Source: Platanthera guangdongensis (lineage: Eukaryota; Streptophyta; Magnoliopsida; Asparagales; Orchidaceae). From it: a DNA stretch of 64,000 bases. Below the pieces are notes generated by a model. The model searched no databases. It was not told the origin of the DNA and worked only from the letters and a program-made list of their open reading frames with translations. The position numbers were made by a program, and so were the translations under genes. The stretch covers positions 59,339,885 through 59,403,884 of the forward strand of contig CM077161.1 of assembly GCA_039583875.1 (NCBI GenBank), given 5' to 3'. Below are positions 6,483-44,043 of the stretch, piece by piece (positions within the stretch are counted from its first letter, which is position 1; each line of letters opens with the position of its first letter).

Positions 6483-7608
6483 CTGTTATGACTTGCTCCG
6501 GGTTTCGAGGCTGTGCCAGATCCAAGGCATACACCTGCTCCCTTTCCGGTCTACGATCGCCACCTGGGTATCCACGTCCTCGGCCACGACCCCGGCCTCT
6601 GAAGTATGGCGCTGGTGGGGCAGCCTGTAGTGCTGGTGGGGGTGCCCTCCCCATGGGACAGTTCCTCCTAATGTGCCCCACTTGGTGACAATCGAAGCAC
6701 ACTGGCGGTTGATACGCCATTCCCCCGGGTCTCTGTTCGTCCCGCCTCTGAACTGGTGGTGGAGCCATCAACACTGGTCTTCCTATCTCCTGTCTCGCCT
6801 CCTGATGAGGCTGGTCTTCTACCCTTCTTCCATCTGTGATGCGGCCCCGCCGCTGATCATTTCGGGCTCCCCGGCTCTGGTCTTCATTTGGCCGCTTCCG
6901 GCCCCGAGTAGTAAGCCAATCCGCCTCGATTCTTTTCGCCATCTCCAAAATCCGGGAGATGGGCCCGTCAGATACAAATAGTAAGGTCTCCCTCAGCTCC
7001 TCCCGCAGGCCCTTGTAGAACCTTTTCGTATACCCAGCTTCGTCCAACTGATATGAGTCTGCAAACCGGGCTAAATGATCAAACTCTCGGTGGTACTCCA
7101 CCACCGTCTTGCTCCCTTGCCTCAACTACAAAAACCTGTCCTCCAGCTCATCTCTGGCTGATTGCGGAACAAAGTGCTCCAATAGCGCGCCCTTGAATTC
7201 CTCCCAAGCTATCTCCGCAGCCGTCCTGTCAGCAAAAATCGTATCCAGGGAAGTCTTCCACCACCTCTTAGCATGAGATTCCAAGCAAGACACGACCAAG
7301 GGCACCCTTTCCTCCCACGGGCACTTGATCCCAGTCAACATCTCGTACATGATATCTAGCCACTCCTCTGTCCGGACGGCAGACTCAGTCCCACAGTAGG
7401 ATGGGGGAGCGAGTCCTCGAAAGATACTCAGCCAGTTGGCCCCTGGGTTTGGCTGCGGAGCCAGAACCTGTTGAGCCCTGAAAGCATCCAAAATGGTTGT
7501 CAACGTCTGTCCCACCTCCGACTGTAGGAAAGGAGTAGGGACCGGGGGAGGTGGTGCAACGTCCGGAGTCCGCTGGGCCCCGCCTTGTGGTGTGGGCTGA
7601 GCTGGAGG
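6483..7608 (-). pseudogene. gag: Element A gag, main exon (one nonsense codon)
   Basis: Structural protein of the virus-like particle. A Pro-rich N-terminal stretch is followed by the conserved GQTLTTILDAF region, the retrotransposon gag core with a W-D-x-M-Y motif, a VxEYxREFxxLARF segment, an Arg-rich linker and a CCHC zinc knuckle (CFDCHQVGHIRRNC, near 6690-6650). TAG at 7126-7128 interrupts the FLQLRQG region (CAG to TAG likely). The open frame begins four codons after an in-frame TAG and has no ATG before the conserved core. It starts instead at a good acceptor (GTTTCGCAG|CC) preceded by a CTAAT branch-like motif. I therefore place its start at 7608 as exon 3, fed in phase 0 by two LTR exons. 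Confidence 0.82.
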
Positions 7609-7784
7609 CTGCGAAACAAACTATATTAGTGGGTAATCAGCTCAAATATATGCAAAGTGGACTATTTTACAAGTGATTCCTCCTTAGGGTCTCACCACTG
7701 CTTCCGCTGCTAGTTTGTCCGCAAACTAAGCTCGCGCAGGGGTGGACCAGGGGTTGTGGACTGTTACTTTTCGATCGGGGTTTC

Positions 7785-7796
7785 CCTCTGATACCA
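7785..7796 (-). promoter_or_regulatory. Element A primer-binding site (initiator tRNA-Met type)
   Basis: On the minus strand, two bases after the 5' LTR ends, the sequence reads TGGTATCAGAGG, complementary in its first 11 bases to the usual plant initiator tRNA-Met 3' end. In the splice model this site is inside intron 2, so spliced mRNAs lose it. Confidence 0.85.
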
Positions 7797-8139
7797 TTTG
7801 TAAGACCCCATTTTTTTTTAATAAAAACACAGGGTCTTATGCCCAGAACCGCCGCTTTGCGGTGACACCTTCTCGCCCGGAAGCGTCATCACCACAAAAC
7901 GCCGTTTCTGCCGGCCAATTCGATCGCAGCATAGTAACAAAATTAGAGTAATCACATGCGAAGCAAAACTCTAAGTAAAAGTCCACAGAAATATCACATC
8001 AAGTAAAATATCTCCACGATGGGAGAGTCCACAAAACCAAGCACTGTAAAAAAAAAGGCTTATGCCCGATACAATAATTCCTCACCACAAGATCTCTCAT
8101 GTGGAAATAAAATAAACACTACTAGAGTAAGGGCCTCAC

Positions 8140-8232
8140 GGTCCCAGCTGTCTGAACTCCTGTGCTAGACTGCCCTATCTCCAAGCGTGTCGACCTCTGG
8201 GGCTGCTCCTCCAATCTGGGCTCCGCGATCCC
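8140..8232 (-). CDS. Candidate LTR exon 2 of gag, element A (93 nt)
   Basis: On the minus strand, acceptor ...CATCATTTAG|GGG opens a 31-codon stretch ending at donor ACC|GTGAGG. Compared with the same place in D (40378-40470), 21 of 31 residues are identical without indels, including EEQPQR, a following RLE and a TAGT end. After the donor the two reading frames lose similarity and stop within five or six codons. The exon is in phase 0 on both sides, matching exon 1 and the gag exon. No known domain is recognised; it would form part of the N-terminus of Gag. If the second intron were not removed, translation would end at TAG 8122-8124. Function is inferred from conservation and splice signals only. 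Confidence 0.6.
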
Positions 8233-10867
8233 CTAAATGATGTGGTTCGAAAACCGTTAGTCTAAAAGACTAAGTCCTATCATCCCCCACCCCTTCCCCC
8301 ATGGCTCCTAGGCACCGAGCGGAGAGGAAGAAATGGAGGACTTGAAAGTGGAGAGTATATCAAATGCAGGTGACGGTGGACCTAAAACTAGCTATTTATA
8401 TAGTAACTAAACATATTTGTAAACAAGTAAAGTAGAGTAACCTTAACTTATATGGGTACATATAAGCAAGGGGTCTTTTGCAAGGCTCCCATCGTATAAA
8501 GAGTCCCATACCAATTTATACGTTGGGGTGTCGGTTATTAACAGCAATATATATATGTAAGGAAAATTAACCTTAATTTATAAACTTGCCCACACAAGCT
8601 TATAGACCAAGGTGTCGTTTTGCAGGGCCTAATGTATAAGTGTCCCATACCACTTATATTTTAGGTGTCAAAGGTTAAATGAATCGCTTATGCTATGACA
8701 TGCAAGTGGGTATGATGGATCAAGCAAGTGCAACACACACACCCGACTCTGTGCACACAGACCTTTAGTTCCCCCTTTCTGGAGCCTCACCTCCCAGGAT
8801 ACCTCCGTAGTGGCAGACGGAAGCGGTGGGTTGGGCCTCGCCCACCTCTAAACCAGTATAGCACTACTGGTCAGACCTATCATACGCCTCAACGCTGGTG
8901 CACTAAGCGGACTCCTGCGTACTCTTGCCGGCTGGCGCACCGGACTTCTGTTGGCGAAGTGCTATCACAACACTTGCCGAGTCAACGTATTGGTGTCTGT
9001 GCTAAGATCCTCCAATACCGAAGACCCACCACCTTAATTTCATTCCTTTTATGCACATGCAAATTTACGTACCAACACCGAGCCGAAGCTCACCGGGCCA
9101 TCCTGCCCTCTTACCACAACGACCGAGCCTATTGCTTGATCATCTAGCCAAAACTACTTCCCGTAACCTCGGGGTGTGTGAGAGTGAAACCCTAATTATT
9201 CTAGTTACTCTTGAAGTTTCATTATTCCTATGAGTTGCGTTAGCCCAGGACTGCCCAAGGTATTCCCCGTGAAGGGCTCTCGAAGGCACTAGGAACTACG
9301 AGGGGATTACGCCCAAAGCTCCCTTTCACAAGGCACTTATTATTATTGGTTACTACACAAATCTCTCAATCCCTTAGGGTTATAATTGAATTCTAACCCA
9401 AGTGTATATGACTCCTTCTTTTCAACGAGGATGAGTGATCCTTTGTCGATCCCGAACCCCACACAACTCTAACCAACCTCCACTACTCATCTACACTTCT
9501 GATGACAAACCTAATTCACCTACCAGACTAATGCCCCATTATTCCAACTTCCTAAACTCATTGTGCACTTACTTTGATTTCTGCTGTTTTTACTAATTGC
9601 AGACCTCCCTAAGCTAATATGATGTACTCAATAGGTGATACTCTAAATTCTCCTCCAATAACTCTACAAATTTTACCAGAGGTCTATTATGATAAATATA
9701 GTCTAAATTCAGAAAATCATATTTTTCCCAATTAATCTACTATTTATTGAATTTTCCTCAAAAACTAGGCCATAGTCAATTTGAACATGAACCATAAGAT
9801 TTTCTCAGGTAATGGCCTCCTAAAATTTTTATTCAAAAATTCTTAAGTTAAAATTGTAAAACATGACTTTGTGAATAAAGTACCAAAAATATTCATCCAA
9901 AATTTATTATAAAATTTCCAGAGATATATATACCCTAAACAACTACCCATTCAAAAACTCAGCCCTTTTCAGAAAGTTTTGGTATTAGAGCTTATGATTT
10001 CAAAGCTAGTGCCCTAAACTAGGGTTATAGATTTAAGGGGTTTAAATTCTTCCAAATGCCCTAAAATTTTAACCACAGGACCATAGTAACCCTATGGACA
10101 TCATTCCCAAGTTTCAAGTCCATCCAAGGTCCTTTGACCCCAAATTCTTCAAACCCTAAAAATTTACCCTAAAGGGCCTACCCTAAAATTCTAGGGCTAC
10201 CCTAGTCCAAACCACTCCAAACTTCATAAGTGAGTGTAAAAAGTCAAATTATATCAGTGGCCAAAATTTCAGCCTCTGATGAGGGAATTTGGCCACTCAA
10301 CCATCAAATAGTGGCTTTTGACCAAAATACCCTTATAAGGTCATATATAGGGTGGGTAAATTACCAATCCTAAACATCTCCAAATGAGCTAAAGTTTTAA
10401 CCCTATACTTATCATGACATCTAAGACCACCCACCAAAATTTGGGGGAGTTTTAAATTAATTAGGTCACATAATTAAATTAATCATGATTTATTAAATTT
10501 TTCTAAAAACTATAGAAAAATATTCTCCAAAAATTCTAAATTTTGGACAGGTTCTAGATATGACTAAGACTTTCTCACTGCCCAAATTTCAACTTGTTTG
10601 GACAAGGAATGAAGTGTGGGCACCAAAACTAATTCCTGTTTAGGCCTAGGTATAGGTCCTACCAAAAAGGGTACCCTGGTCTAACCAGTGGCCCAAAAGG
10701 GTCCAAGCAATTTTTGCTACAACCTAGACACCCTAAGCTACAATTTTCATGTTGGGCAGATTTCCATTCAGGGTCCCTAAGTATTTTAAAAAATTAAATA
10801 CATTAAATACATCTAATGTGACCGAAATGAAATGATATTTATTTAAATCCTAAAGTATCTGATTTGA

Positions 10868-11110
10868 TGCCGCGCGAATCTTGGCGCAGATCGACGGCGC
10901 TGGGTTATCGTCCCCGATGAGCCAACGGCCAGGATTGCTTCTTCCTGTGCCGACTTCAAGCGTCTGCCGCCGACCACCCAGTCCCTTCCCCGGCCGGCCA
11001 CCGCCACCATCACCTCCGTTGAGGTGGTGGCTATCGCCAGACGGCGGCACAGCCGCCGGAGGGGCGGATTCCGGCGATCCAACCAATAAAATTTTCGGCC
11101 GAAAGCCATG
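10868..11110 (-). other. GC-rich island in A LTR with CACCTC/GAGGTG hairpin
   Basis: A sharp GC-rich block in an otherwise AT-rich LTR, also at 1689-1931 and, diverged, in both D LTRs (33280-33540, 43670-43935). It contains CACCTCCGTTGAGGTG. Short open frames cross it on both strands, but the frame is not kept between A and D, so I do not call it coding. It lies about 100 nt downstream of exon 1 in intron 1 and may be part of the transcribed leader or a promoter-proximal CpG-rich segment. Confidence 0.5.
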
Positions 11111-11202
11111 AATTTTGCGAATTGGATCGGGCTCAATTGTGCCCGAACCTTGGCCCTAATGAAACCTAAGATCTACCCATGAGAAAAGAGGAGGAGGAGG
11201 AC

Positions 11203-11244
11203 CTTGTTGGCGGCCTGGAGACGAGCGGATCTGTGGGTTGACAT
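11203..11244 (-). CDS. Candidate LTR exon 1 with Gag start codon, element A (42 nt)
   Basis: The minus-strand ATG at 11244 lies in a GCCACCACCATG context and starts a 14-residue peptide (MSTHRSARLQAANK) resembling the D version (MASRRSSRIQAAEK) at the same LTR position. It ends AAG|GTCCTC. GT is present, but the following bases are a poor donor match, so this splice site is the weakest part of the model. Read through, the frame stops after 11 more codons. A second copy is at 2024-2065. Basic start exons in the LTRs of B and E occupy the same place. Confidence 0.48.
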
Positions 11245-11755
11245 GGTGGTGGCGCCGCCGATCGGAATTCTGCAATCTCCCAGTAAACTCGCCGGATTTC
11301 TTCAGTTAAGGATTGGGAAATTCTTCTCCAAGCTCACTGATGATGTTTAAAACATCAGAGGGGGAGAAGAATGGAAGAAACTGCCCTGGCCATCATGGCC
11401 ATTAAAGGCTTGTTTCGGCCATGATGGTGGAGGCTGTAACAGCCCCTTGACAGCCAGGAAAACGGCTGGAAACTCCTCCCCTTCACTGGAGGAGATGAAT
11501 GCTGCCATCAATGGGGACCATTGGCCTTTCCTTGGCCAATCTCCTCCTTCAACTCTCTTTCCCCTTTTCTCTCTCCTCCATTAGTATGGAATGAAGCTTT
11601 CTCTCTCTTTCCTAGTCACCAAAGCTGACCATGCTGACTCCCCAGCCTATTGGCAGCCCTTTCCACCCATAATATTTCATTATATTGTGGTTAACTTAAA
11701 AGGAAAAAGGGGTTGAGCTTGGGTCAGTTTCCCCCTTTGCTAGGTTAATAATGTT

Positions 11756-11760
11756 GTGAT
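11756..11760. other. Target-site duplication of element B (left), GTGAT
   Basis: GTGAT precedes the TGTAACG start of B and is repeated at 30611-30615 directly after B's TCTTACA end. The uninterrupted site ...TTGTGATGGGGTC is visible in the other A LTR at 2575-2587. Confidence 0.95.
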
Positions 11761-11889
11761 TGTAACGTCCCGAATCGCTCTAGGCCCCTAGTGTGTCTGT
11801 TTTTGAGTCAGGAGGGTTGACTCAAGTCCTGAGAAGTGCAGGGAATTGGACTGCACTTGTGGAGAAGTGGAGAAATCAGTGTAAAAAGA

Positions 11890-12265
11890 CACGGGAAGTG
11901 ACACGGGTAGTGACACGGCCGTGTCCCTACCCGTGTGCGTCGAGTTGAGCTCGACGAGCCGTGGCGAGATCGTCGAGAATCGTCGAGAATCGTCGAGCGG
12001 GGAACACGGGTAGTGACACGGGCGTGTCCCTACCCGTGTGCGTCGAGTTGAGCTCGACGAGCCATGTCGAGATCGTCGAGAATCGTCAAGATGCGTCGAG
12101 CGGGGAACACGGGTAGTGACACGGGCGTGTCCCTACCCGTGTGCGTCGAGTTGAGCTCGACGAGAAGTGTCGAGATGCAACCCGAGAGTACACGGCCAAT
12201 GACACGGTCAGGCCGTTTCGCGGAAGCGGGACACGGGTACGGACACGGTCGTGTCCCTACCCGTA
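11890..12265. repeat. Palindrome array in B U3 (about 100-bp units)
   Basis: Three units of about 100 bp plus a partial one. Each has an imperfect palindrome built from ACGGGTAG, GACACG, CGTGTC and CTACCCGT, followed by a 7-bp stem CGTCGAG/CTCGACG with loop TTGAG and several GTCGAGA repeats. It ends just upstream of the TATA box. The 3' LTR copy (19934-20395) has one more palindrome, so copy number has changed since insertion or by conversion. Confidence 0.85.
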
Positions 12266-12277
12266 TCATATTTTGCT

Positions 12278-12284
12278 TATAAGG
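12278..12284 (+). promoter_or_regulatory. TATA box of element B (5' LTR)
   Basis: TATAAGG preceded by TTTTGCT and followed by an AAACCCTAG leader typical of plant transcripts. It lies 134 nt before the exon 1 ATG. The 3' LTR copy is at 20401-20407, directly upstream of the site where C inserted. Confidence 0.6.
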
Positions 12285-12411
12285 GGCAGAGGAAACCCTA
12301 GCCGTTTTCACTCTCATTTCACCCCCTATTTCCTGTGAGAGCTCCTGGTGAGAGGAAAACTGCAGGAGCAAGTTCTACCGAAGGAGATCCGCCATCGCCG
12401 TGAAAGAGAAG

Positions 12412-12471
12412 ATGCCGCCGAGGAGAACTACGCGATCCATGACAAGAAATGGTGGTACCGCTGGAGCCAAT
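12412..12471 (+). CDS. Candidate LTR exon 1 with Gag start codon, element B (60 nt)
   Basis: ATG at 12412 opens a 20-codon basic peptide beginning MPPRRTTRS and ends at AAT|GTGAGT, a near-consensus plant donor. MPPRR-type starts are familiar from Gag proteins of this lineage. The exon is in phase with exon 2 and with the gag exon at 15104. Read through, the frame continues through the donor into non-coding LTR. The 3' LTR copy (20535-20594) is intact, with one Thr-to-Ala change. Confidence 0.62.
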
Positions 12472-14493
12472 GTGAGTTTCCTACCCTCTCCCTTGGTGCT
12501 AGATCTTAGATATTTAGGAGAGACATCGGTTCAAGAGAGCTTGATGGAGAGGAGAAGATTTCTAGGTTAGGCCATGTTAGAACTTGTGTTCTAGACTTTG
12601 GATCTCTTCAACCCTTCCCCTTTTTCTTCAATATGACGATGGGTGGATGGTTTTGTGAGGAGTTTATGGCCTCTGAGGTTGAATAAGGGAGGAGAATATT
12701 TCTGGAAAATTTAGGAACGATCGCCTTGAGGAGGAAGATGAACCGATGCCGTTCATTTTCCTTTAAGATGCGCGCAGAATCTGTATTCTGCGCGCAGCAA
12801 TCTTCTAGGCCATTTTCCCGATGGATAAGTCCAGATCTGGGCTTTCGGCTAAACACGAAAGTTGAAGCCCTTGGAAATACCTTTCCAACGAGTGGTTGCA
12901 CGACTTAAGGTGATGTCTGTGGCCCCGGGAAAACCTAATCGAGTTTGCTGTCCGGCAGTTCCTGTACACAGAAACTGTGTTCTGTACGCAGCAGACTTCA
13001 AGTCCGATTTCAGATAGGATAACGTCAAATCTGGGTTGAGGTCTGAATACGAGAGTTGTAGACGTCGGAAATACCTTTCCATCGAGGGGTTACACGACGT
13101 CACCGGATTCCTGTAGCCTCGGGAATCTCCGGTTGAAGTTGCTGTCCAGTACTAATCCTGCACTTAAAAATCTGGGTTTTATAACATTTGGACTTTGAAT
13201 CGGAGAAACTAATATCACAGGTAACTCTGAGGCTTGGATAAACTTTTATGAATAATTAATTCAGTTGCATAAATGATGAAGATTATTAATCGGACTCCAT
13301 GTGATCGAATCGTAAGATAGTATACTTGAATGATTTGACTTGTTAAAAGCTAGTAGATTTTTATACATATGCATCTTGATATATTGTGTTGAAATCACCT
13401 GATATGACATATAGAAGGATAACTCATGGCCATGTGAATGTTGAATAGTGGATTTAACTTGGTAGTCCAATACTTAGAGCGTCGCCTTCCTATGGGTAGC
13501 ATTGTGTAAGTTTGTAAGAGCGGTGTTGACCGCCACCTGTTTTGGTTGTGTCGTGATAAGGTGTGGATGGATGGTTGGGCTGTGTCCTCGTGCTCACTCC
13601 GAGGCCCCTTCCGTGGTATGATGAGGTTGTGAATTGCATGTGGTGTGAGTCGACACGCGGTGTCGTAATCCTGGGTTAAGGATAGTGTGGCAGGTCTACG
13701 GGCTCGCCAGTCGTCACACCGACGGGAGTTGGCAGTTAGACTTGGTCGGTTTGGGCTGTGTCCTCGGTGTTCACGTCCTGAGGCCCCTCCGACCATGTGA
13801 ACGGTTGGGCTGTGTCCTCGTGCTTTCTTCCGAGGCCCCTTCCGGGTCACGCAAGGCCAGTTCGGGCTGTGTTCTTGGTGCACATCTACCCAAGACCCCG
13901 CTGGGCCATAGTACGCATGGGCTCCGCTGTTGTGTTCTTAGCGTTGAGGCGTACGGAGGCCTAGGTGAAGTAGTGTGATACCCGCCTAGTAGTAGAAGTG
14001 CCCGTTCTACTGTCACCGCCTGGCCACGGCGGCTGATGCCTGAGAGGTTAGCTACCTGCTCGAAAAGTGGGAACTATAGTCTGTGTCGACATAGCAAGTG
14101 CATGGGTGAGTCATTGCATAGCATTCATAGCATTTCATATCATTGCACAACAAGATCCTCATCGTATAAGTTTGTATGGGCACTCTTATACGATGAGTTA
14201 CTTTTATGTAACCCGATCCTTAACTTATAAGTTTGTATGGGCATTCTTATAAGTTAAGTTACTTTCTTGTTGTTACTTATACTTGCTGGTTTAGTGTAGC
14301 TCTTACATAAATGCTGATTATGATACTGTTACTCTTACACTACTGTCACCTGCTTGTACTTCCTTTACTTGCTTACTTGTTATATACTATACTCTTGATC
14401 CTTTTCTCCGCCCGGTGCCGAGAAGTCGCCGGGGGAGCGGATGTGAAACCACTTAGTTGTTTCGACTAACGGTTGCTACGTCTTCCTTTTTAG

Positions 14494-14565
14494 GAGGTCA
14501 CGCCGCAGGTGCAGCAGCCGCAGACTACGCAGCAGGACAGCCAGGCCAGGACGACAGGGCCTGAG
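14494..14565 (+). CDS. Candidate LTR exon 2 of gag, element B (72 nt)
   Basis: Acceptor CGTCTTCCTTTTTAG|GAGG has a strong pyrimidine tract and opens a Gln/Thr-rich frame of 24 codons to a possible donor GAG|GTGACG. Without that donor the frame runs on to TAG at 14641-14643 (49 codons in all). Position, 414 nt from the LTR end, matches exon 2 of A and D, and the upstream CCGCCCGGTGCCGAG motif is shared with A. Phase 0 on both sides. No domain recognised. Confidence 0.55.
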
Positions 14566-14910
14566 GTGACGGTGCCGTCGATACCGTCAGTTACTGATGT
14601 TAGTTTTGATTACTCTGATGTAGCCCGATTGGGCAATGTTTAGCTGTACTCTGATATTTTGTAGAAGCATGTTTAGCTTCTCATCATTTCATGTTTTGGA
14701 CATTATATATTACTTAGTGTGGATTTGACTTCTGTTTATTTATTTGGTTGGGTTGGCATGATATATTGATATTGTTGTAGCCGGCGGAATAGGCGTCTTG
14801 TGGTACAGGTTAGCCCGTGTGCTAATGCTACCGCAAGGCGGCTGTTCCGGGCATAAGACTCCCCCTTCGTGCCGTGTTTTGGGATCCGGGGAGGAGGGGG
14901 TCTTACAAAA

Positions 14911-14919
14911 TGGTATCAG
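14911..14919 (+). promoter_or_regulatory. Element B primer-binding site
   Basis: TGGTATCAG starts three bases after the LTR. The match to initiator tRNA-Met is shorter than in A, because TTTGCC follows. It lies inside proposed intron 2. Confidence 0.75.
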
Positions 14920-15103
14920 TTTGCCACGATCCTCAACTACGAAGTCATTCAACAATGGTGCCACCCCCGTTTGTGTTAGTCAGTTTGGGGACAAACTGAC
15001 TTAGCGGAAGCAGTGGTGTGCCCATATGTAATTCACATTAAGTTTGTCCAACTTAGACCTTAAGTTTAGCCAACCTGACCACAAATTTGTCGTGTACGTG
15101 TAG

Positions 15104-16229
15104 ATTCCACTGCATGTTGAGCCGATGGGGGGCACTCCTACCCCTCCCATACCCACTCAGTTCGAACAGTCTGAGTTGGGGCAGACGCTCACCGCCATTC
15201 TTGATGCTTTTAAGGCACAGCAGGCTCCGGTGCAACAACAGGCCCCGAGCTCCAACTGGCTGAGCACCTTCCGTGCTCTCTCCCCTCTCGTCTACCTTGG
15301 GACAGAGTCAGCCGTACGTACAGAGGAATGGCTAGATACGATACAGGAGTTGTTGGCTGGTATCTGTTGCCCAGCCAACATGGCAGTGACATTGGCAGTG
15401 TCCGTCTTGGACTTACATGCGAAGAGGTGGTGGAAGTCCCTCATGGGCTCTACCTTCCAAGGCCGGATCTACACTGAGATAAGTTGGAGTGAATTCTCGG
15501 GTGTTTTCTTGGAGCACTTTATCCCTACATCGGCCCAAGATGAGCTTGAGCAGAGGTTCCTTCTACTAAAGCAGGGATCAAAGTCGGTTACAGAATACCA
15601 GCGGGAATTCCAGCATCTCGCAAGGTTTGTGGACTCTTATGAGTTGGATGACAGAGGTTATGCCAAGCGCTTCTATAAAGGGCTGCGAGATCCCCTAAGG
15701 CAGTCCCTTTTGTTTATAGCGGATGGTAGCTCGGCGGAGATCATTGATATGGCGAAAAGATTGGAGGCGGACCACATGGGATGTAGTAAGAGGCCTGCGG
15801 AGGACGTGATGGAAGCCGGCCCATGGAATAGAAGGAGGCGAGACTTCAGAGGAGGAAGAGGTTATCAAAGAGGTGGCGGGCGTGTCCACCGAAACTATAG
15901 GGTGGAGCATCCAGTTCCGCAGCCGCCTGCGTTGCCTCCACCCCCACAGCCTCAGCGATTTCAACAACCTGAAGGGCGTCGTGGTCTGGTGTGCTTCGAG
16001 TGTAACCAGCCGGGCCACATCCGACATTTTTGCCCGCAGCTATATGGGAACGTCCCTCCTGCTCTCCCTCCTACTCTCCCTCCTGCTCTCCCTCCACCAG
16101 CTCCACGAGGACGGGGATATATGTGTGGTCGAGGACGAGGACCGCCAAGAGGAAACCCCGGACCTGTCCGGGATCAGGTGTACGCGCTTGACATGGCGCA
16201 GGAACGGAACCCACAAGATGTGATTGCAG
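15104..16229 (+). CDS. gag: Element B gag, main exon (intact)
   Basis: Capsid/nucleocapsid polyprotein. From the N-terminus: a Pro-rich stretch, the GQTLTAILDAFKAQQ segment, the gag core with an ESAVRTEEWLD motif, a VTEYQREFQHLARF segment, an Arg/Gly-rich linker, a CCHC knuckle (CFECNQPGHIRHFC near 15990-16031) and a Pro/Leu-rich tail ending QERNPQDVIAG. Protein closely parallels A and D gag. A conventional start would be ATG 15125. I extend to 15104 because an in-frame TAG at 15101-15103 coincides with an acceptor (CGTGTAG|ATT) that joins LTR exons 1 and 2 in phase 0. If intron 3 is kept, translation ends at TAA 16238-16240. Confidence 0.9.
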
Positions 16230-16324
16230 GTATGATTTAATTAGTTTACATATTTGCATGGTTTAACATGAATTGAATAGAACTTATTAGACACTAGCAA
16301 TAAGTTTTGGTCGTTGGCACTTAG
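16230..16324 (+). other. Candidate intron between gag and protease, element B (95 nt)
   Basis: Donor GCAG|GTATGA, AT-rich body, acceptor GGCACTTAG|GC. Splicing completes a Gly codon and continues in frame into protease, although gag and pol are in different frames in the DNA (95 is not a multiple of 3). Retention gives Gag with two extra residues. Confidence 0.75.
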
Positions 16325-19716: not shown

Positions 19717-19805
19717 AAACATATGATGAATTTCCTGTTAAGCCTTTCTCCACACAGTCTAAGCCTGATTTCGGGGACGAAATCTTTTATTTTGTTTATA
19801 GGATT
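19717..19805 (+). promoter_or_regulatory. Element B polypurine region with stem
   Basis: Between the pol stop and the 3' LTR. GATTTCGGGGACGAAATC at 19767-19784 is a perfect 7-bp stem with a GGGA loop, matching the stems near the polypurine tracts of A and D. Confidence 0.7.
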
Positions 19806-20686
19806 TGTAACGTCCCGAATCGCTCTAGGCCCCTAGTGTGTGTGTTTTTGAGTCAGGAGGGTTGACTCAAGTCCTGAGAAGTGCAGGGAATTGGACTGCA
19901 CTTGTGGAGAAGTGGAGAAATCAGTGTAAAAAGACACGGGAAGTGACACGGGTAGTGACACGGCCGTGTCCCTACCCGTGTGCGTCGAGTTGAGCTCGAC
20001 GAGCCGTGGCGAGATCGTCGAGAATCATCGAGCGGGGAACACGGGTAGTGACACGGGCGTGTCCCTACCCGTGTGCGTCGAGTTGAGCTCGACGAGCCGT
20101 GTCGAGATCGTCGAGAATCATCAAGATGCGTCGAGCGGGGAACACGGGTAGTGACATGGGTGTGTCCCTACCCGTGTGCGTCGAGTTGAGCTCGACGAGA
20201 AGTGTCGAGATGCAACCCGAGAGTACACGGCCAATGACACGGCCAGGCACACGGCCGTGTCATGTGAACACGGGTCGGGACACGGGCGTGTCCCTACCCG
20301 TGTAAAACATTGAACCGACATGGAAACCGCCACGGCCGTTTCGCGGAAGCGGGACACGGGTACGGACACGGCCGTGTCCCTACCCGTGTCATATTTTGCT
20401 TATAAGGGGCAGAGGAAACCCTAGCCGTTTTCACTCTCATTTCACCCCCTATTTCCTGTGAGAGCTCCTGGTGAGAGGAAAACTGCAGGAGCAAGTTCTA
20501 CCGAAGGAGATCCGCCATCGCCGTGAAAGAGAAGATGCCGCCGAGGAGAACTACGCGATCCATGGCAAGAAATGGTGGTACCGCTGGAGCCAATGTGAGT
20601 TTCCTACCATCTCCCTTGGTGCTAGATCTTAGATATTTAGGAGAGACATCGGTTCAAGAGAGCTTGATGGAGAGGAGAAGATTTCT
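19806..20686 (+). repeat. Element B 3' LTR, first part (before C)
   Basis: Same start as 11761. It includes the longer version of the palindrome array, the TATA box 20401 and exon 1 copy 20535-20594. Element C is inserted about 90 bp after the exon 1 donor. The LTR continues at 28267. Confidence 0.95.
20682..20686. other. Target-site duplication of element C (left), TTTCT
   Basis: TTTCT before the TGGTGG start of C and again at 28262-28266 after its CATCA end. The uninterrupted site is seen in B's 5' LTR near 12560 (AGATTTCTAGG). Confidence 0.95.
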
Positions 20687-21956
20687 TGGTGGCGACGACG
20701 GCCCCCAAGTTGACGACGGCCTCCAAATTGATGACGGCCCCCAAGTTGATGACGGCCCCCAAGTGGTTGATGACGGCACTCTAACGGAAGACCCTCCTTC
20801 GTCTCCAACAAAGGACTCGCGTCGCCGAGGTGTTCGTATGGAGCGGCGCTACAATTTCCGCCCTCGGCGCAAGACAAATATATAGTTAAATTTTTCTTTA
20901 GATTTATCTTATTTTCTTTATGCTATTTTATTTGGGATATTGTATTGTGGGCTGCATGTAGCCATTTGGTGTGTTGTTTTATTTTTATTTTGGGCTGCAT
21001 ATAGCCTAGACTTATTTTTAAGCCTATATATAGGCATGTATGTTTGGTTTAAATTAAGTTGAATGAGAAAGAAAAAACCCTAGTCTTTTCCCCTCTAAAC
21101 ATTCTCTCCCTCTCTCTCTACATATCCTAGCCGCCACCCTCACTCCCCCTCTCTCTCTCTCTAAAAGTTCGGCCAGCACTTTCCCTTCCCCTCTCTTCAA
21201 CAAGCTGCCACCCTCATCTCTCACTCTCCCTCTAAAAGTTTCGGCCAGCCCACACATCTCCATCTTCCAAGCCCCACCTCCTCTCACCACCCACAACCCG
21301 GCCTCCACCTTCTCCAAAACCGACCGGCCACCCTTCTCCTCGTGAAGCTTTGTCCGGAAAGGTCTCCTTCTACGGCGAGAAATCTGGACTTTGGTGTGAA
21401 GCGGCCAAGGCGGACGATCTATCTCTCCATCCGGCGCGACTCCGGCGGAACCGTGGAAGAGCGACCCTTCAAGGGTAGTCGGAATCATCTATTCCGACTT
21501 GGGTAACGATCCTCTCCACTCACGTGTGATTCCCTCTTGATATTCTAGTGGACGGAAAAAATTTTGCGTTAGATTTGAATCGTTAGATTCTTCGTGGGTT
21601 TTTCTTTGGATTTTTGCATAGAGCCTAACCGCGTTATTTCCGAACAAGGGTTTGGCGAACCCCGTTTTTTTTTGTTGGGAGAGATCTACCATTTTTCGAT
21701 CGCATTTTGGGTAGATCTCTTTTGGTACAAACTTCGCTCGGTCGGACCCAATATTGGTCCTTTTAGCTTGGGAGAACGTCGGCCTATCGCCGTTCACTCG
21801 ACCTTCCCGCGGAGTGGCTACCGTACGTTGGTGAACTGTGATAATACGCTTGCGAGTGCGCTGCGATTAAATCTAGTGCGTGAGAGATTGTGGGTTGAGC
21901 GTGGCGTTCGTTTCTTCCCCTTACCCGTCTAGTGTCCGCGGTAGTGGCCTACATCA
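20687..21956 (+). repeat. Element C 5' LTR (1270 bp)
   Basis: Runs from TGGTGGCGACG to GGCCTACATCA. It begins with 18-bp tandem repeats (20695-20780) that encode the pol C-terminus in the 3' copy, followed by a T-rich stretch, TATA box 21025-21034, and a pyrimidine-rich leader with CTCTCTCT runs. No gene of its own. Confidence 0.94.
21025..21034 (+). promoter_or_regulatory. TATA box of element C (5' LTR)
   Basis: TATATATAGG within the palindrome GCCTATATATAGGC; an AAACCCTAG leader starts about 50 nt downstream. The 3' LTR copy is at 27330-27339. Confidence 0.6.
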
Positions 21957-21961
21957 AATTT

Positions 21962-21973
21962 TGGTATCAAAGC
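21962..21973 (+). promoter_or_regulatory. Element C primer-binding site
   Basis: TGGTATCAAAGC five bases after the LTR, a one-base variant of the initiator tRNA-Met site and identical to that of D. Confidence 0.8.
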
Positions 21974-22270
21974 GAGGTTCTTGTCAATTTTTTAATTGGC
22001 ACCCTCCCCTCTTTTAGCACGTTAACCTGCACTTGTGTTTGCGCGTTAGTTGTCACAAAAAAAAAAAAAATCTCCAAAAAAAAATTATCTTTGGTCTGCC
22101 AATAGCGGCGTAGTTTTCTTAATTTTCAGCCAAAAAAATCAAAATAAATTTTTTAATAATCCTCTTTTTATTTCCTGTAAGAAAATCAAAAAAAAAATTA
22201 TTTTCCTATAGTCATTAAGCGGGATTAATTCCTTCTTCGTTCTGCCTGAAATCTGTTGTCCTCCATTTGC
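21974..22270 (+). other. Element C untranslated leader
   Basis: AT-rich sequence with A-runs at about 22058-22082 and 22190-22200 between the primer-binding site and the gag ATG. No coding signal seen. Confidence 0.6.
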
Positions 22271-27190: not shown

Positions 27191-28261
27191 TTAAATTTTT
27201 CTTTAGATTTATCTTATTTTCTTTATGCTATTTTATTTGGGATATTGTATTGTGGGCTGCATGTAGCCATTTGGTGTGTTGTTTTATTTTTATTTTGGGC
27301 TGCATATAGCCTAGACTTATTTTTAAGCCTATATATAGGCATGTATGTTTGGTTTAAATTAAGTTGAATGAGAAAGAAAAAACCCTAGTCTTTTCCCCTC
27401 TAAACATTCTCTCCCTCTCTCTCTACATATCCTAGCCGCCACCCTCACTCCCCCTCTCTCTCTCTCTAAAAGTTCGGCCAGCACTTTCTCTTCCCCTCTC
27501 TTCAACAAGCTGCCACCCTCATCTCTCACTCTCCCTCTAAAAGTTTCGGCCAGCCCACACATCTCCATCTTCCAAGCCCCACCTCCTCTCACCACCCACA
27601 ACCCGGCCTCCACCTTCTCCAAAACCGACCGGCCACCCTTCTCCTCGTGAAGCTTTGTCCGGAAAGGTCTCCTTCTACGGCGAGAAATCTGGACTTTGGT
27701 GTGAAGCGGCCAAGGCGGACGATCTATCTCTCCATCCGGCGCGACTCCGGCGGAACCGTGGAAGAGCGACCCTTCAAGGGTAGTCGGAATCATCTATTCC
27801 GACTTGGGTAACGATCCTCTCCACTCACGTGTGATTCCCTCTTGATATTCTAGTGGACGGAAAAATTTTTGCGTTAGATTTGAATCGTTAGATTCTTCGT
27901 GGGTTTTTCTTTGGATTTTTGCATAGAGCCTAACCGCGTTATTTCCGAACAAGGGTTTGGCGAACCCCGTTTTTTTTTGTTGGGAGAGATCTACCATTTT
28001 TCGATCGCATTTTGGGTAGATCTCTTTTGGTACAACCTTCGCTCGGTCGGACCCAATATTGGTCCTTTTAGCTTGGGAGAACGTCGGCCTATCGCCGTTC
28101 GCTCGACCTTCCCGCGGAGTGGCTACCGTACGTTGGTGAACTGTGATAATACGCTTGCGAGTGCGCTGCGATTAAATCTAGTGCGTGAGAGATTGTGGGT
28201 TGAGCGTGGCGTTCGTTTCTTCCCCTTACCCGTCTAGTGTCCGCGGTAGTGGCCTACATCA
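26992..28261 (+). repeat. Element C 3' LTR (1270 bp)
   Basis: Same length as the 5' copy. I see five differences by eye (for example at 27090, 27488, 27866). Its first 199 bp are the 3' end of the gag-pol frame, with stop at 27188-27190. Confidence 0.94.
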
Positions 28262-30610: not shown

Positions 30611-30615
30611 GTGAT

Positions 30616-38598: not shown

Positions 38599-38730
38599 CT
38601 GTGACGATTTAAATGTCTCAGTACTTTATAACGGGTTCTCTTTCCTATTTATTCTACTCAGGGCAGTTCTACTTGTTGAGCAAATGAGAACGGAAATTTT
38701 TGTTTAAACAATTTAAACATCTTAGCTTAC
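38599..38730 (-). other. Candidate intron between gag and protease, element D (132 nt)
   Basis: Donor CACAG|GTAAGC (near-perfect) and acceptor CGTCACAG|GT. Removal joins gag to protease in phase 1 at the Gly codon. Retention extends Gag by 19 codons after the Gly and stops at 38669-38671. Confidence 0.75.
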
Positions 38731-39856
38731 CTGTGATGACCCGCTCTGGGTTTCGAGGCTGTGCCAGGTCCAAGGCATATACCTGCTCCCTTTCCTGTCT
38801 TCGGTCTCCTCCCTGATTACCACGTCCTCGGCCGCGTCCTCGGCCTCCGAAATGCTGGGCAGGTGGGCCACCCTGTGGTGCTGGAGGTGGTGCCCCCCTC
38901 ATAGTGCAGTTTCTCCGGAGATGTCCCACATGGTGACAATGGAAGCACTCCGGCGGGGGATACGCCATACCCCCGGGTCTCGGAATCTCCTGAATCCGGA
39001 GAGGTTGAGGGGCCAAAACCACCTGCTCTCTCGGCTCCTGCCTCACCTCCTGACGAGGCTGCTCCTCTATCCTCCTCCCATCTGGTATGGTGCCTCGCCG
39101 CTGATCATTTCGGGCCCTCCGGCCCTGATCCTCCGCTTGCCGCTTCCGGCCCCGAGTGGTGTGCCAATCGGCCTCAATCCTCTTCGCCATCTCCAAAATT
39201 CGGGAGATAGGCCCATCAGATACAAACAGCAGGGCTTCCCTCAACTCCTCTTTTAGGCCCTTATAAAATCTCTTGACGTAACCTGCGTCGTCCAGCTGGT
39301 AAGAGCCCGCATACCGGGCCAAATGGTCGAACTCTCGGTGGTACTCCACCACCGTCCTGGTGCCCTGTCTCAGCTGCAAGAACCGCTCCTCCAACTCGTC
39401 CCTGGCCGACTGCGGAACAAAGTGCTCCAGCAGCGTGGCCCTGAATTCCTCCCAAGTGATTTCTGCAATCTCCCTATCAGCAAATGTCGTGTCCAACAGC
39501 GTCTTCCACCACCTCTAAGCATGGGACTCCAAGCAAGATACCACCAGGGCCACCCTCTCCTCCCAAGGGCATCGTATCCCAGTCAACATCTCGTACATAA
39601 CATCCAGCCACTCCTCTGTCCGCACTGCCGACTCTATCCCCAAGTATGATGGGGGAGAGAGTCCTCGGAAGGTGCTCATCCAGTTAGCCCCTGGGTTTGG
39701 CTGCTGGGCTGGAGCCTGCTGAGCCCGGAATGCCTCAAGGATAGCTGTAAGGGTCTGCCCCATATCTGACTGAAGGAAGGGTGTGGGGACCATGGGAGGT
39801 GGTGCAATATCTGGGGTCTGCTGAGCTCCACCTTGTGGAGTGGGCTGAGCTGGGGG
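38731..39856 (-). pseudogene. gag: Element D gag, main exon (one nonsense codon)
   Basis: Same layout as A gag: PPAQPTPQGG start, GQTLTAILEAF segment, gag core, VEYHREFDHLARY segment, basic linker, knuckle CFHCHHVGHLRRNC (about 38955-38910). TAG at 39515-39517 interrupts the KRWWK region (AAG to TAG likely). Five codons upstream of the first codon the frame has TAG. The exon opens after CTACTAAT (a branch-point-like sequence) and TTTTGCAG, a strong acceptor, in phase 0. Confidence 0.82.
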
Positions 39857-40030
39857 CTGCAAAACGAACTACATTAGTAGGTAATCGACTCAAAGCCTAA
39901 AGATAGTGGACAATTTACATGTGATCCCCCATATGGGCACACCAATGCTTCCGCTGCTTAGTTTGTCCTCAAACTAAACTCGCACGGGGGTGGACCAGGG
40001 TTGTGAACTGCTACTTTTCGATCGAGGTCT

Positions 40031-40042
40031 GCTTTGATACCA
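40031..40042 (-). promoter_or_regulatory. Element D primer-binding site
   Basis: Minus strand TGGTATCAAAGC, two bases after the LTR end at 40045; inside proposed intron 2. Confidence 0.8.
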
Positions 40043-40377
40043 CTTGTAAGACCCCCTTTTTTTTTCTCTTTCGACTCCGGGGTCTTAGGCCCAGAACCGC
40101 CGTTTTGCGGTGACTCATTCACGCCCTGAAGGGTCATCACCACAAAGCGCCGATTCTGCCGGCCGTTTTCGATCACAGAAAAAGTAGCACAATAATGTAA
40201 ATGCAAATTGCAGTCTACAGAGAATCACATGTCAAAATAAAATAACTCCACGAAGGGAGTGTCCACAGAATAATACATCAGAGTAGCAAAAACGGGCTTA
40301 TGCCCGGTACATCATATCCTCACTACAAAAAGATCACTCATGCGGATGCAGAAAAACTACTCAAGGTCGAGACTCAC

Positions 40378-40470
40378 GGTCCCGGCTGTATGAACTCCGG
40401 AGCTACACTGCCCTACCTCCAAGCGCACCGGTCTCTGGGGCTGCTCCTCCATGCTGGTCTCCACGATCCC
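40378..40470 (-). CDS. Candidate LTR exon 2 of gag, element D (93 nt)
   Basis: Acceptor CATCATTTAG|GGG and donor ACC|GTGAGT, the latter a consensus donor. It gives 31 codons in phase 0 on both sides, with no indel against A. Identical residues include EEQPQR, RLE, GQ and the TAGT end. If the donor were ignored the frame would stop at 40357-40359. Best supported of the LTR exons. Confidence 0.66.
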
Positions 40471-43400
40471 CTAAATGATGCGGTTCGAAAACCGTTAGTC
40501 TAAAAGACTAAGTCCTATCATCCCCCGCCCCTTCCCCCACGGCTCCTAGGCACCGAGCGGAGAGGAAGAAAGGGGAGGACTTGAGGGTGGAGAATATCAA
40601 AAGCAGATGGTAGCGGTCCTATTCTAGCAAATTCTATAGCATATAAAGACAATAAGCTGAAATATGAAAAGTAACCTTTACTTATGTGAAAACACATAAG
40701 CCAAGGGGTCTTCTGCAAGGCTCCCATCGTATAAAAAGTCGCATACCAATTTATACGTTGGGGTGTCGGTGATCAAACAGCAGTAACCATATATAACAAA
40801 ATTAACCTTAATTTATAAACTTGCCCACACAAGCTTATAGACTAAGGGGTCGTTTTGCAGGTCCTAAAGTATAAGCATCCCATTCCACTTATACTTTAGG
40901 TGTCAAGGTTTAAAGGTAATGATTATGCTATGACATGCAAGTGGGTATGATGGACATGCAAGTGCAACACACACACCCGACTCTGTGCACACAGACCTTT
41001 AGTTCCCCCTTTCTGGAGCCGTAACCTCCCAGGATACCTCCGTAGTGGCAGACGGAAGCGGTGGGTTGGGCCTCGCCCACCTCAAAACCAGTAAAGCACT
41101 ACCGGTCAGACCTATCGTACGCCTCAATGCTTGGTGCACGAAGCGGACTCCTGCGTACTCTTGCCGGCTGGCGCATCGGACTTCTGTTGGCGAAGTGCTA
41201 ACCACACTTGCCGAGTCAACGTATTGGCGTCGGTACATCGACCCTCCAATACCGAAGACCCACCACCTTAATGTCATTTCCTTTTATGCACATGCAAATT
41301 AGCGAAATCAAGAACCGAGCCGAAGCTCCCCGGACCAACACGTCCGTCTCAATCAATCGAGCCGAAGCTCCCCGGACCCAAAGTCCGCATTTTAACCATC
41401 CGAGCCGAAGCTCCCAGCTAACATCCGGTGCCATCAGTGTTTGTGAAATGTGCAACCCTAATTACTAAGTTACACTTTTCAGCTTGTTAAAACAGTTTAC
41501 GTTAAACCCAGGACTGCCCCTGGTATTTCCTGTGAAGGGCTCTCAAGGGGCACTAGGAACTGTGTTGGGATTACGCCCAGCGTTCCCTTTCGCAAGGTAC
41601 TTATTTTGTTATTGGTTGGTTTCCTTACCCATTATTTTCTCATGTTCCGATATGCTAATCCTAGGGTGATTTGACTCCAACTCTCCTTCGGTAGGACGAT
41701 CTTTCGTCGGACCCGAACGCCTCTAGACCCTAGACAAAAACCACACTCTACTCACTCATCTTCCATAGATGCCACCCATTCTACATGTCCTTCCAGCAAT
41801 CCATCAAGACCCATCACACGTGCTCTAATTCATATCCAAAATGATTTCCTGCAGTTTTGCTATATGCAGACCACTTAAGCTACAAGACCCGTAAAAAGGG
41901 AAGTACATGAAATACTCATCCAGTACCCCTATGATAATTACTAGAGGGCCAAAATGATATTTGAAGCATAAATCCAGAAATACATAATTTTCCTAATTTG
42001 TTTGATAATTTATTTATTTATTCTAGTATCCAAAAAGCCCAAGTTTGAACATGAAGTAGCAATTTCAGACAAGATAATGTTCCAATAAATATAAGGTAAT
42101 TACAAAATGCCTAATCAACTCTAAGTCCTAAGTCTTCAAGTTTTTCAGCAAGGTTTGGGCCCTTAAATTTAATTTCAAAGTTACCTCATAAAAAGTCAAT
42201 TTAAAAGATTTTACAGTAATAATGCCACCAAAAATTCAGAGAAAATTCATGGATGATTTTAATGGCCTACAAATACCCTAGAAAAAGTTTCATAATTTAT
42301 CATTTAAAATTAAGGCCATATTTGATTTTCTCATGAAATTTCAAGTTTATGGATTAATGAACAAAGTATACTAATTAACCATCAAATATTTCCACAAAAA
42401 TTCCCCCACGATAATATTGAGCTAGAAACACTATGCAGCAAGTTTCATGATTTTTCAATAAGTAATGGGCTCTTGCAAGAATTATTTAGTATGTAATCAA
42501 AATAAAGCACTTGTGAAGTAGATGCCCTAAATAGATATCCAAAAAGTCTATCAAAATTCATACATGATTAGTATAGCCTAAAACTACCTCTGCCAATGTT
42601 TAATACCCTTTCAATGGGCAGTGAGACCACAATAGCCAAATTATTAATTAGGGCAATACTATTGGTTACAAATGAAGTGCTACAAATATTGATCAAAACT
42701 CCTCAAGTAAATTATCAGAAGCTCAAAATATCCTCATTCCATCACTACCCAAATTTGGTTAAGTTTCAAGGTGTTTAGCTAACCCAAACCTACACTACAA
42801 GTTTTAGGTCCTAAGCTAGGGTTAGGGTTTTGGGGACCCTTCCCTTTTAAAAATTAGTTAATATTTCTAACAGAGGGTTTTATATATCCTAGGAACCTCC
42901 TTGCAAAATTTGGAGTTCATCCATGGTGTTTAGGACTTATGCCCTTCACAAGGCAAAAAGGTCCCTATTTAGGGTTTGGCCTAGGGACTTAGGGCAAATC
43001 AACTCTACTCTATACCACATTCCATGGGGAGGTGCTAAGTGCCATAACAAGTCAGTGACCCAAATATCAGCCTCTGTTGAGGTGATTTGGTCACTGAAAA
43101 TCAGAAATGCACTTTTGACCAAAATGCCCTTACTAAGGTATAGTTAGGGTTGGGTCAATACCTACTCAAAACACATCCAAACTAGGTGAAACTTTATACA
43201 GTTACATAACCTGAGTCCATGGACCACTCACCAAAATTTGGGAGGGTTTGGAGATCATTAGACCACCCAATTAAATTATCATAGATAAATTAAATAATTT
43301 CCAAAACTATAGAAAAAGTGCCCCCAAAAATTCTCATTTTTGTCTACTCCTAGATATGGTCTAGGTTGAATATCTTCCAAAATTACAGCTCATTTGGATC

Positions 43401-43669
43401 AATGATAAAGTGTGGGCACTCAATTGAATTTCTGCCTAGCCCAATGTGTAGGTCCCACCAAAATGGGTGTCCTGGTCAGACCAGGCACCCAAATTGGTCC
43501 AAACCAATTTTAAAATACACTAGACCCAAGGGGCTACAAATCCTATGTTGATCATTTCCTCATACAGAGTCTCTAACTATTTTTAAATAATTAAAACATT
43601 AAATGGCCTAAGAGTGAAAGAATTCATAAAACACACATATCATACACTATAGTTTAATCCATCCATCTG

Positions 43670-43935
43670 CACGAATCTTGGCGCAGGATTAACGGAATCC
43701 GGTCATCCTCAAGCTCCAGCCGACGGCTGCGATTCGTCCCGCCTGGAGCGATTTCCAAATGCCACTGCCGGCGACCCGGCCACCTCCCCGGCCGGCCACC
43801 GGCACCACCACCTCCGTTGAGGTGGTGGCCATCCCCAGGCGGCGGCTTGGCCGACGGAAACCCCTTTTCCGGCGATCCCGAGAGGTGAAGTTTTTCAGAA
43901 AAATCCATGAAAAAGCCGAATTGGATCGGGCTCAA
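43670..43935. other. GC-rich island in D LTR with 10-bp perfect stem
   Basis: Contains CCACCACCTC CGTT GAGGTGGTGG, a perfect 10-bp stem, also at 33411-33434. Homologous to the A island. No consistent reading frame. Confidence 0.55.
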
Positions 43936-44001
43936 TTGAGCCCGAACCTTGGACCTATGGATTGCTATGATCTAATCATGAGTTAAGGAGAGGGGGAGGA
44001 C

Positions 44002-44043
44002 CTTCTCGGCGGCCTGAATGCGGGAAGAGCGGCGGGATGCCAT
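44002..44043 (-). CDS. Candidate LTR exon 1 with Gag start codon, element D (42 nt)
   Basis: Minus strand ATG at 44043; peptide MASRRSSRIQAAEK; ends AAG|GTCCTC (GT present, otherwise weak donor, the same in both D LTRs and in A). The left LTR copy (33610-33651) differs by one codon near the end. Phase 0 with exon 2. Confidence 0.5.

Follow-up and report, generated by a model that had tools for sequence, protein, structure and literature searches.

A Gag start predicted to be encoded by spliced exons within the long terminal repeat in four gypsy elements of the orchid Platanthera guangdongensis

In a 64,000-nucleotide stretch of the Platanthera guangdongensis genome (contig CM077161.1, positions 59,339,885 to 59,403,884; hereafter the window), four gypsy retrotransposons, denoted A, B, D and E, carry short frames inside their long terminal repeats (LTRs) that appear to encode the start codon and N-terminus of Gag. 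On the sequence evidence it is probable that Gag is made from RNA from which two introns, introns 1 and 2, have been spliced out, and that genomes are made from the unspliced RNA. The case is strong for B, owing to a matching gene model (P0001), predicted exons that are open in dozens of copies and a related family about 77% identical to it. It is good for A and D, where exons 2 and 3 are well supported as predictions by a second gene model (P0003) and two further genomic copies, while exon 1, having a poor donor, is moderately supported and its donor doubtful; for E it is plausible from the anatomy alone. The spliced Gag message proposed in the first-pass annotation is thus partly supported: strongly for B, well for exons 2 and 3 of A and D, and less so for exon 1 of A and D and for E.

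The four elements have LTRs of ~2.7–5.3 kb. Self-comparison of the window shows that A, on the minus strand, is inserted in the 3′ LTR of D, and B, on the plus strand, in the 5′ LTR of A. The LTRs measure ~3.15 kb in B, ~5.3 kb in D, ~4.2 kb in A (where B interrupts one) and ~2.7 kb in E (borders set by sequence; the window holds a single E copy). LTR–LTR identity is 99.3% for A (over the part inside the window) and 97.8% for D, and for B it is 93.7% in the first 500 bases, rising to 98.6–99.0% in the remainder. B matches reverse transcriptase (RVT_1), RNase H, integrase and protease domains in the order of a gypsy polyprotein, A matches RVT_1, RNase H and integrase, and in E a scan confined to reverse transcriptase found it; in A and B the integrase follows reverse transcriptase–RNase H, which is the gypsy-type and not the Ty1/copia order. 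A TGGTAT(C/T)A motif, which we take to be a primer-binding site and which may be complementary to tRNA-Met, follows the LTR in all four. The elements had been labelled Tekay-like, which agrees with the gypsy pol of A and B and with the multi-kilobase LTRs, a Tekay/Del feature present in A, B, D and E. Chromo matches in the integrase tails of B (E-value 3.7e-05, 24.0 bits) and A (E-value 8.1e-05, 22.9 bits) both lie below the Pfam cut-off of 25.1. The gag genes of A, D and E contain in-frame stops, so these copies themselves are non-working and the argument concerns their families.

The predicted exons and introns are listed here with the evidence for each (P0001 and P0003 are gene models of Platanthera zijinensis).

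12412..12471, plus strand: B gag exon 1 in the 5′ LTR, MPPRRTTRSMTRNGGTAGAN, donor GTGAGT; match to P0001 57–76, open in copies
14494..14598, plus strand: B gag exon 2 in the 5′ LTR, 35 codons, donor GTTAGT; match to P0001 77–111, copies
14599..15103, plus strand: B intron 2, the LTR remainder and primer-binding site; anatomy
15104..16229, plus strand: B gag exon 3, Gag core, Retrotrans_gag; domain match, P0001
16230..16324, plus strand: B intron 3, between gag and protease; precisely missing from five genomic copies
11203..11244, minus strand: A gag exon 1, MSTHRSARLQAANK, weak donor GTCCTC; anatomy, A/D alignment
8140..8232, minus strand: A gag exon 2; 20/25 identical to P0003 1–25
6483..7608, minus strand: A gag exon 3, with in-frame stop; gene-model match
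6345..6482, minus strand: A intron 3; GT-AG
44002..44043, minus strand: D gag exon 1, MASRRSSRIQAAEK, weak donor GTCCTC; anatomy, A/D alignment
40378..40470, minus strand: D gag exon 2; 22/25 identical to P0003 1–25
38731..39856, minus strand: D gag exon 3, with in-frame stop; gene-model match
38599..38730, minus strand: D intron 3; GT-AG
55258..55281, plus strand: E gag exon 1, MARKSSPK, donor GTAACG; anatomy
56442..56498, plus strand: E gag exon 2, GKDRMQELARRPKRPKPHE, weak candidate donor GAA-GTGCTT; anatomy
56975..58136, plus strand: E gag exon 3, with one in-frame TGA; domain scan
58137..58207, plus strand: E intron 3; GT-AG

The exon coordinates, frames and GT/AG borders claimed for the four elements in the first-pass annotation are present in the sequence, the joins are in phase 0 as it described, and exons 1 and 2 have lengths that are multiples of three. 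One border is revised: the end of exon 2 in B, placed at 14565, is likelier at 14598 (GAT-GTTAGT), because P0001 77–111 spans all 35 codons; among 57 genomic copies the donor there is GTTAGT in 56 and GTGAGT in one. The open frame extends upstream of the gag exon by 4, 0 and 4 codons in A, B and D, within the 0–5 codons claimed, and by 15 in E. The first methionine of the gag exon lies at codon 87 in A, in keeping with the claim that A has no early gag ATG, and at codons 8, 22 and 38 in B, D and E; E has an additional in-frame ATG 14 codons 5′ of the gag exon. Intron 1 spans 1.2–3.5 kb inside the LTR, and intron 2, of ~0.5 kb, holds the LTR 3′ end and the primer-binding site. GC content is 58–65% in exon 2 vs 40–50% in introns 1 and 2. 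ATGs from the exon-1 start to the gag exon number 51 in A, 52 in B, 80 in D and 57 in E, and the 150 nt upstream of the exon-1 ATG hold none in B and E, two in A and one in D; given this distribution, a scanning ribosome could reach exon 1 and hardly the gag exon of an unspliced RNA.

Used as a query against proteins, the B gag exon yielded eight matches, six of them from two Platanthera species. In P0001, B exon 1 aligns at residues 57–76 (11/20 identical), exon 2 at 77–111 (26/35, with all 35 codons aligned) and exon 3, over its first 30 codons, at 112–141 (21/30). The three segments follow one another without a gap, and none of 1000 shuffled peptides did as well in any of the three cases. 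Exon 2 of B also matches P0005 (21/35) and P0002 (14/35). Residues 1–25 of P0003 correspond to codons 7–31 of the A/D-type exon 2 (22/25 identical to D, 20/25 to A), and its match to exon 3 resumes at residue 26. The Gag of E found three weak matches in the protein collection. In a further P. zijinensis model, P0012, an N-terminal part resembling a flavin adenine dinucleotide (FAD)-dependent oxidoreductase is joined to the gag exon approximately at the acceptor, the exon 3 match running from residue 150; the join has the look of host exons being spliced to the element.

Donors and acceptors were ranked using general plant splice-site frequencies. The exon-1 donors of B and E rank high (7/278 and 4/261), and those of exon 2 rank 15 in B, 64 in D and 81 in A. 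Among leader AGs, the exon-3 acceptor ranks 3 in A, 17 in B and 4 in both D and E, and the exon-2 acceptor 46 in A, 3 in B, 61 in D and 1 in E. The branch-site consensus CTRAY, with its A 13–30 nt 5′ of the AG, is present at all eight predicted acceptors, compared with 488 of the 8362 AGs in the window (5.8%); the chance of finding it at every acceptor is ~4e-8 with A and D counted once. Alignment of the A and D LTRs reveals four conserved ATG-to-GT stretches, among which exon 1 alone exceeds eight codons and is the sole phase-0 stretch with positive donor scores in both elements; a rival phase-1 stretch of eight codons has slightly better donors. On their own, folding energies were unremarkable around the acceptors (z of −1.04 to −1.84 for exon 2 and −1.18 to +1.30 for the gag exon) and for longer exon-2 pieces (−1.81 to −2.04), and folds around intron 3 were not significant in B (z −0.06) or E (z −1.41).

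The genome searched comprises 4,245,561,818 bases in 274 contigs. From it, 59 B-type loci were compiled; those of the window itself, two of A/D type and four duplicates were excluded, and some of the 59 are the two LTRs of one element. Of 20 B-type copies retrieved through their exon-2 matches, all contain exon 2 and 18 also contain exon 1. Over the whole set, exon 1 was found at 25 loci and is open in every one, with donor GTGAGT in 24 and GTGAGC in one; at 32 of the remaining 34 the fetched stretch was too short, and two lack the exon. Exon 2 is complete at 57 loci, open in 56 and disrupted by an indel in one, and its acceptor is AG in 54, TG in two and gapped in one. The start of the gag exon is complete at 44 loci, open in 41, with an AG acceptor in 43. 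In a related family (L032 with L065; ~77% identity to B) the reading frame is preserved over 20 + 35 codons; the donors read GTGAGC and GTGAGT, the acceptors TTTTAG and TGTAG. For exon 1, nonsynonymous and synonymous divergence (dN and dS) are 0.27 and 1.12 between B and the L032 family, over few sites, and 0.31 and 0.78 between A and D. Pooled substitutions at the three codon positions number 26, 15 and 30, the second being low (one-sided P 0.017, chi-square P 0.08), and the corresponding counts for the A and D gag exons are 53, 44 and 142. Selection at the codon level thus seems only partly visible in exons 1 and 2.

These results bear on a reading in which the exons are chance frames and the leader is never spliced, Gag being reached on full-length RNA by re-initiation, shunting or internal entry. 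Some donors are weak, and no fossil joining exon 1 to exon 2 was found in the genome, as that reading would have it; we nevertheless consider it scarcely credible, given CTRAY at 8/8 acceptors, gapless gene-model matches, conserved frames, 51–80 leader ATGs and copies precisely lacking intron 3, from which it follows that B-family RNA can be spliced.

The latter copies concern a third GT-AG stretch of 71–138 nt, entered in phase 1, that separates gag from protease in A, B, D and E. If intron 3 is retained, Gag ends 2 (B), 4 (E) or 9 (A) codons past the split codon; the stretch of D that was inspected contains no stop. A genome search with P0001 gave 155603 candidates, of which 88 copies were scored. 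The intron-3 site was covered in 34 of these: 29 have a 95-nt intron, and five long-frame copies lack exactly the equivalent of B 16230–16324, reading GATTGCAG and then GCACCGTG. A further nine loci retain intron 3 at 95 or 96 nt. The corresponding search with P0003 gave 179478 candidates and 87 scored copies; 53 matches run uninterrupted across the intron-3 site and 34 are interrupted, the borders not having been read base by base, and 53/87 is not the frequency of intron-less copies because the ranking favours uninterrupted matches. Two uninterrupted A/D-type copies were followed upstream, and both keep exon 2, a hairpin upstream of it (described below), intron 2 with its primer-binding site, and the acceptor, and their CTRAY motifs read TACTAAT and TACTGAT. 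A search with the E Gag, a query that ends where intron 3 begins and so does not bear on its loss, scored 106 copies; the longest open frame is 488 amino acids, and 19 copies have frames of 463–488 amino acids.

The precise absence of intron 3 points to B-family RNA that was evidently spliced and then reverse transcribed, losing an intron that lies outside the primer-binding site. It is very unlikely that the intron was instead gained by the other copies: the uninterrupted A/D-group copies do outnumber the interrupted ones, subject to the ranking bias just mentioned, but an intron occupies this place in A, B, D and E, and what the five B copies lack coincides exactly with a GT-AG stretch retained in copies very similar to them. 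Such fossils are not by themselves proof that introns 1 and 2 are spliced; those two introns had been claimed on other grounds, and direct genomic fossils exist for intron 3 only, which had not been listed with them. P0003 was rejected as proof of intron-3 splicing, since it may derive from an intron-3-less copy.

No copy joining exon 2 to exon 3 was found among the 175 scored with P0001 and P0003. The P0001 matches start at residue 104–111 in 88/88, at most eight residues before the gag-exon border at 112, and the P0003 matches at residue 24–26, the gag-exon border, in 86/87; the remaining copy, starting at 39, is uninformative. The absence of this join is what the model predicts, because RNA without intron 2 has no primer-binding site. 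One B-type copy (L064, near its position 4393), in which a deletion joins the primer-binding site to near the gag-exon acceptor, was rejected as such a fossil because most of intron 2 had been lost by a non-GT-AG deletion.

Several observations weigh against an LTR-encoded Gag start. Among the splice sites, the exon-1 donors of A and D (GTCCTC), already flagged as weak in the first-pass annotation, are poor (ranks 68/242 and 94/303), as is the exon-2 donor of E (GAA-GTGCTT, 59/261). Exon 1 is missing from two of the 20 fetched B-type copies (L015 and L020), and a pattern for the B exon 1–exon 2 junction, allowing up to three mismatches, had no match in the whole genome. The gene models are themselves imperfect witnesses: Platanthera genes were called by MAKER, which mixes de novo prediction, homology and RNA-seq, according to the accessible text of the genome paper (PMC9023349). 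P0001 has its N-terminus 56 residues upstream of the exon-1 ATG, whereas P0003 starts within exon 2, at an MEEQPQ that D exon 2 also contains, and, as it may come from an intron-3-less copy, says nothing on intron 3. ATGs also lie at or just before the gag exon in B and E, and within exon 2 in D. Exon 2 shows a slight synonymous excess at most between B and the L032 family (dN 0.24, dS 0.36), where another frame does equally well (dN 0.22, dS 0.38), and none between A and D (dN 0.18, dS 0.19); given this weak constraint, exon 2 may be a loosely constrained linker.

Some of these points would also fit a leader in which introns 1 and 2 are real and untranslated, exon 1 being a short upstream frame and Gag starting in exon 2 or the gag exon, at MEEQPQ in D and P0003, at codon 8 of the gag exon in B or 14 codons ahead of it in E; the little codon constraint on exon 2 agrees with this. 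We regard such an arrangement as improbable, because the gag exon of A offers no methionine before codon 87, the length and frame of exons 1 and 2 are kept in the copies and in the 77% family, the two abut without a gap in P0001, and exon 1 has the synonymous excess given above for B, few as the sites are. We retain the inference that exon 1 supplies the start and that splicing removes introns 1 and 2 in living tissue.

In A, B, D and E alike, the exon-2 branch motif belongs to a 7-bp stem capped by a 3–4-nt loop and sits in its 3′ arm, the arms being TTAGTCT/AGACTAA (A, D), TTAGTTG/CGACTAA (B) and GGTCAGC/GCTGACC (E). The hairpins, and stem-loops of an array further upstream, lie as follows.

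14453..14469, plus strand: B 7-bp hairpin, 3′ arm with GACTAA(C), 25 nt 5′ of exon 2
8257..8273, minus strand: A branch-site hairpin
40495..40511, minus strand: D branch-site hairpin
56401..56418, plus strand: E 7-bp hairpin GGTCAGC-ATTT-GCTGACC, branch-like CTGAC in the 3′ arm, 26 nt 5′ of exon 2
14158..14197, plus strand: B stem-loop 1 of the intron 1 array
14219..14258, plus strand: B stem-loop 2 of the intron 1 array
8488..8665, minus strand: A stem-loop array, three members; possible weak fourth at 8442–8470
40723..40900, minus strand: D stem-loop array, three members; possible weak fourth at 40676–40705

The combination of hairpin and branch motif occurs at eight of the 8362 window AGs, namely the four exon-2 acceptors, one AG beside that of B, two in the B 3′ LTR and one at 33139. 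The rule was fixed after the hairpins had been seen; five settings of it gave 5 to 14 AGs, four of them recovering all four exon-2 acceptors and the G-U-free setting three (B missed). Of 57 B-type copies, 53 have the stem TTAGTCG/CGACTAA, one has a two-sided change (TTAGTTG/CAACTAA) and the other three have a one-sided change, a mismatch or a gap. The hairpin may slow splicing. The array lies ~240–430 nt upstream of exon 2 and comprises two stem-loops in B and three each in A and D, with GTATGGG-type loops. Pairing holds in 94.2% of the 104 cells of the eight members, and two-sided changes affect 6 of 13 pairs; the observed pairing and covariation were each reached in 0/500 shuffles, the number of two-sided pairs in 23/500 and the number of pair types in 319/500. 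A stem-loop model built on the array finds ten members in the window, namely those eight and two more in the B 3′ LTR, all on the same strand as their element, gives the weak fourth stem-loops of A and D E-values of 0.16 and 0.05, and finds two members in each of three genomic loci (L032, L059 and L062); in E, the search of the window found none. Rfam gave two matches on the B leader, far under gathering scores. RNA export and packaging are candidate functions, and alternatively the array may be palindromes acting as DNA.

As proposed, removal of introns 1 and 2 would yield a Gag mRNA in which exon 1, presumably situated close behind the promoter, provides the ATG together with a short, basic N-terminal segment, exon 2 a short linker close to the LTR 3′ end, and exon 3 the Gag core beyond the primer-binding site. 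As that site lies in intron 2, the spliced RNA would be translatable and not primable; only unspliced RNA would then be inherited, and introns 1 and 2 would persist, a sharing of roles between two RNAs that recalls retroviruses. With intron 3 retained, translation would stop soon after Gag (A, B, E), and with it spliced, Gag-Pol would be made. A broader and more tentative idea, which we think has somewhat less than an even chance, is that the LTR houses a retrovirus-like programme: its length would be owed to the first two gag exons and to a large intron carrying covarying stem-loops, the hairpin would throttle splicing, the array, carried by unspliced RNA only, would mark genomic RNA for export or packaging, and the primer-binding site in intron 2 would lock in introns 1 and 2 while intron 3 is repeatedly lost.

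Plant pararetroviruses offer one parallel. The genome of rice tungro bacilliform virus (RTBV) has no LTR. In RTBV, splicing fuses a short leader frame to the distant P4 frame and regulates how much unspliced RNA is left for translation and reverse transcription, as stated in the accessible passages of PMC5902531; the likeness is a leader frame spliced onto a distant one, which is predicted here from anatomy and gene models, and the difference is that the product is P4, not a capsid polyprotein. Ogre, a Ty3/gypsy element of the Tat lineage, has a partly spliced coding-region intron (PMC6317226; PMC12786077, consulted in extract) and is, like the present elements, a plant gypsy element interrupted within its coding region, but its intron separates GAG-PROT from RT, whereas intron 3 here precedes the protease and is accompanied by two LTR/leader introns. 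Among Ty1/copia elements, BARE1 has separate RNA pools for translation and replication, with a spliced Gag RNA (PMC3735527), and in EVADE short-GAG splicing removes the protease part behind gag (PMC12786077). Both resemble the present model in their split RNA pools and in splicing that favours Gag, and differ in being copia elements for which the accessible text mentions no Gag start inside the LTR (PMC3735527; PMC12786077). Plant LTR elements are said in one review to be generally without introns (PMC12786077, in the part available).

For Tekay/Del, sugarcane DEL LTRs of 2762–5139 bp are on record (PMC3352295, available passages). The present elements share with that lineage a gypsy pol, very long LTRs and possibly, on matches below cut-off, a chromodomain; they differ in the intron and LTR-encoded Gag N-terminus, which go unmentioned in the available parts of the published descriptions examined (PMC6317226; PMC3059260; PMC3352295), and no such LTR gag exons are named in those of PMC9097378 and PMC3352295. 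In sunflower, expressed elements give spliced isoforms, and Tekay is absent from the expressed set, according to the accessible text of PMC7730604. CRM elements were considered as an earlier example of a Gag that starts in the LTR, and rejected: there, in the passages available, it is the integrase end that lies in the 3′ LTR, with no mention of intron, splicing or start codon (PMC3059260). The searchable literature on Tekay/Del, mainly titles, abstract openings and selected passages with few subscription papers, yielded no description of LTR gag exons and does not contradict the first-pass annotation, which knew of none. What appears new here, then, is the prediction of LTR exons encoding the Gag start and N-terminus, with the primer-binding site within an intron. 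LTR/Gypsy and LTR/Copia are the most abundant retrotransposons in two Platanthera genomes (PMC9023349, accessible portion).

Other features of the window were noted alongside. Element F (20686–28261), a gypsy element nested in the B 3′ LTR with 1.27-kb LTRs that are 99.6% identical, has a single gag-pol frame of 1644 amino acids after its primer-binding site and so provides an unsplit contrast. A large inverted repeat occupies 47490–52385, its arms 72–81% complementary with ~80 bases between the innermost arms. A and D share up to 98% identity in the LTR block at 8690–8900, against 50–80% over much of the LTR. The otherwise different LTRs of B and E have in common the palindromic repeats ACACGGGCGTGTC (20 matches with at most one mismatch, 0.03 expected) and GAGCTCGACGA, the latter found also at 46.7–47.0 kb; possibly they are shared promoter motifs.

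11912–12255: palindromic repeats, B LTR
54225–54959: palindromic repeats, E LTR
46725–46964: palindromic repeats, further stretch

Relatives of B Pol sought in viral contigs gave four pattern matches, none of them confirmed.

If the proposal is true, Gag proteins of such elements annotated from behind the primer-binding site would be N-terminally truncated, and the LTR length of such families would gain an explanation. The conflict between serving as message and serving as genome would be solved by splicing, with the primer-binding site placed inside an intron.

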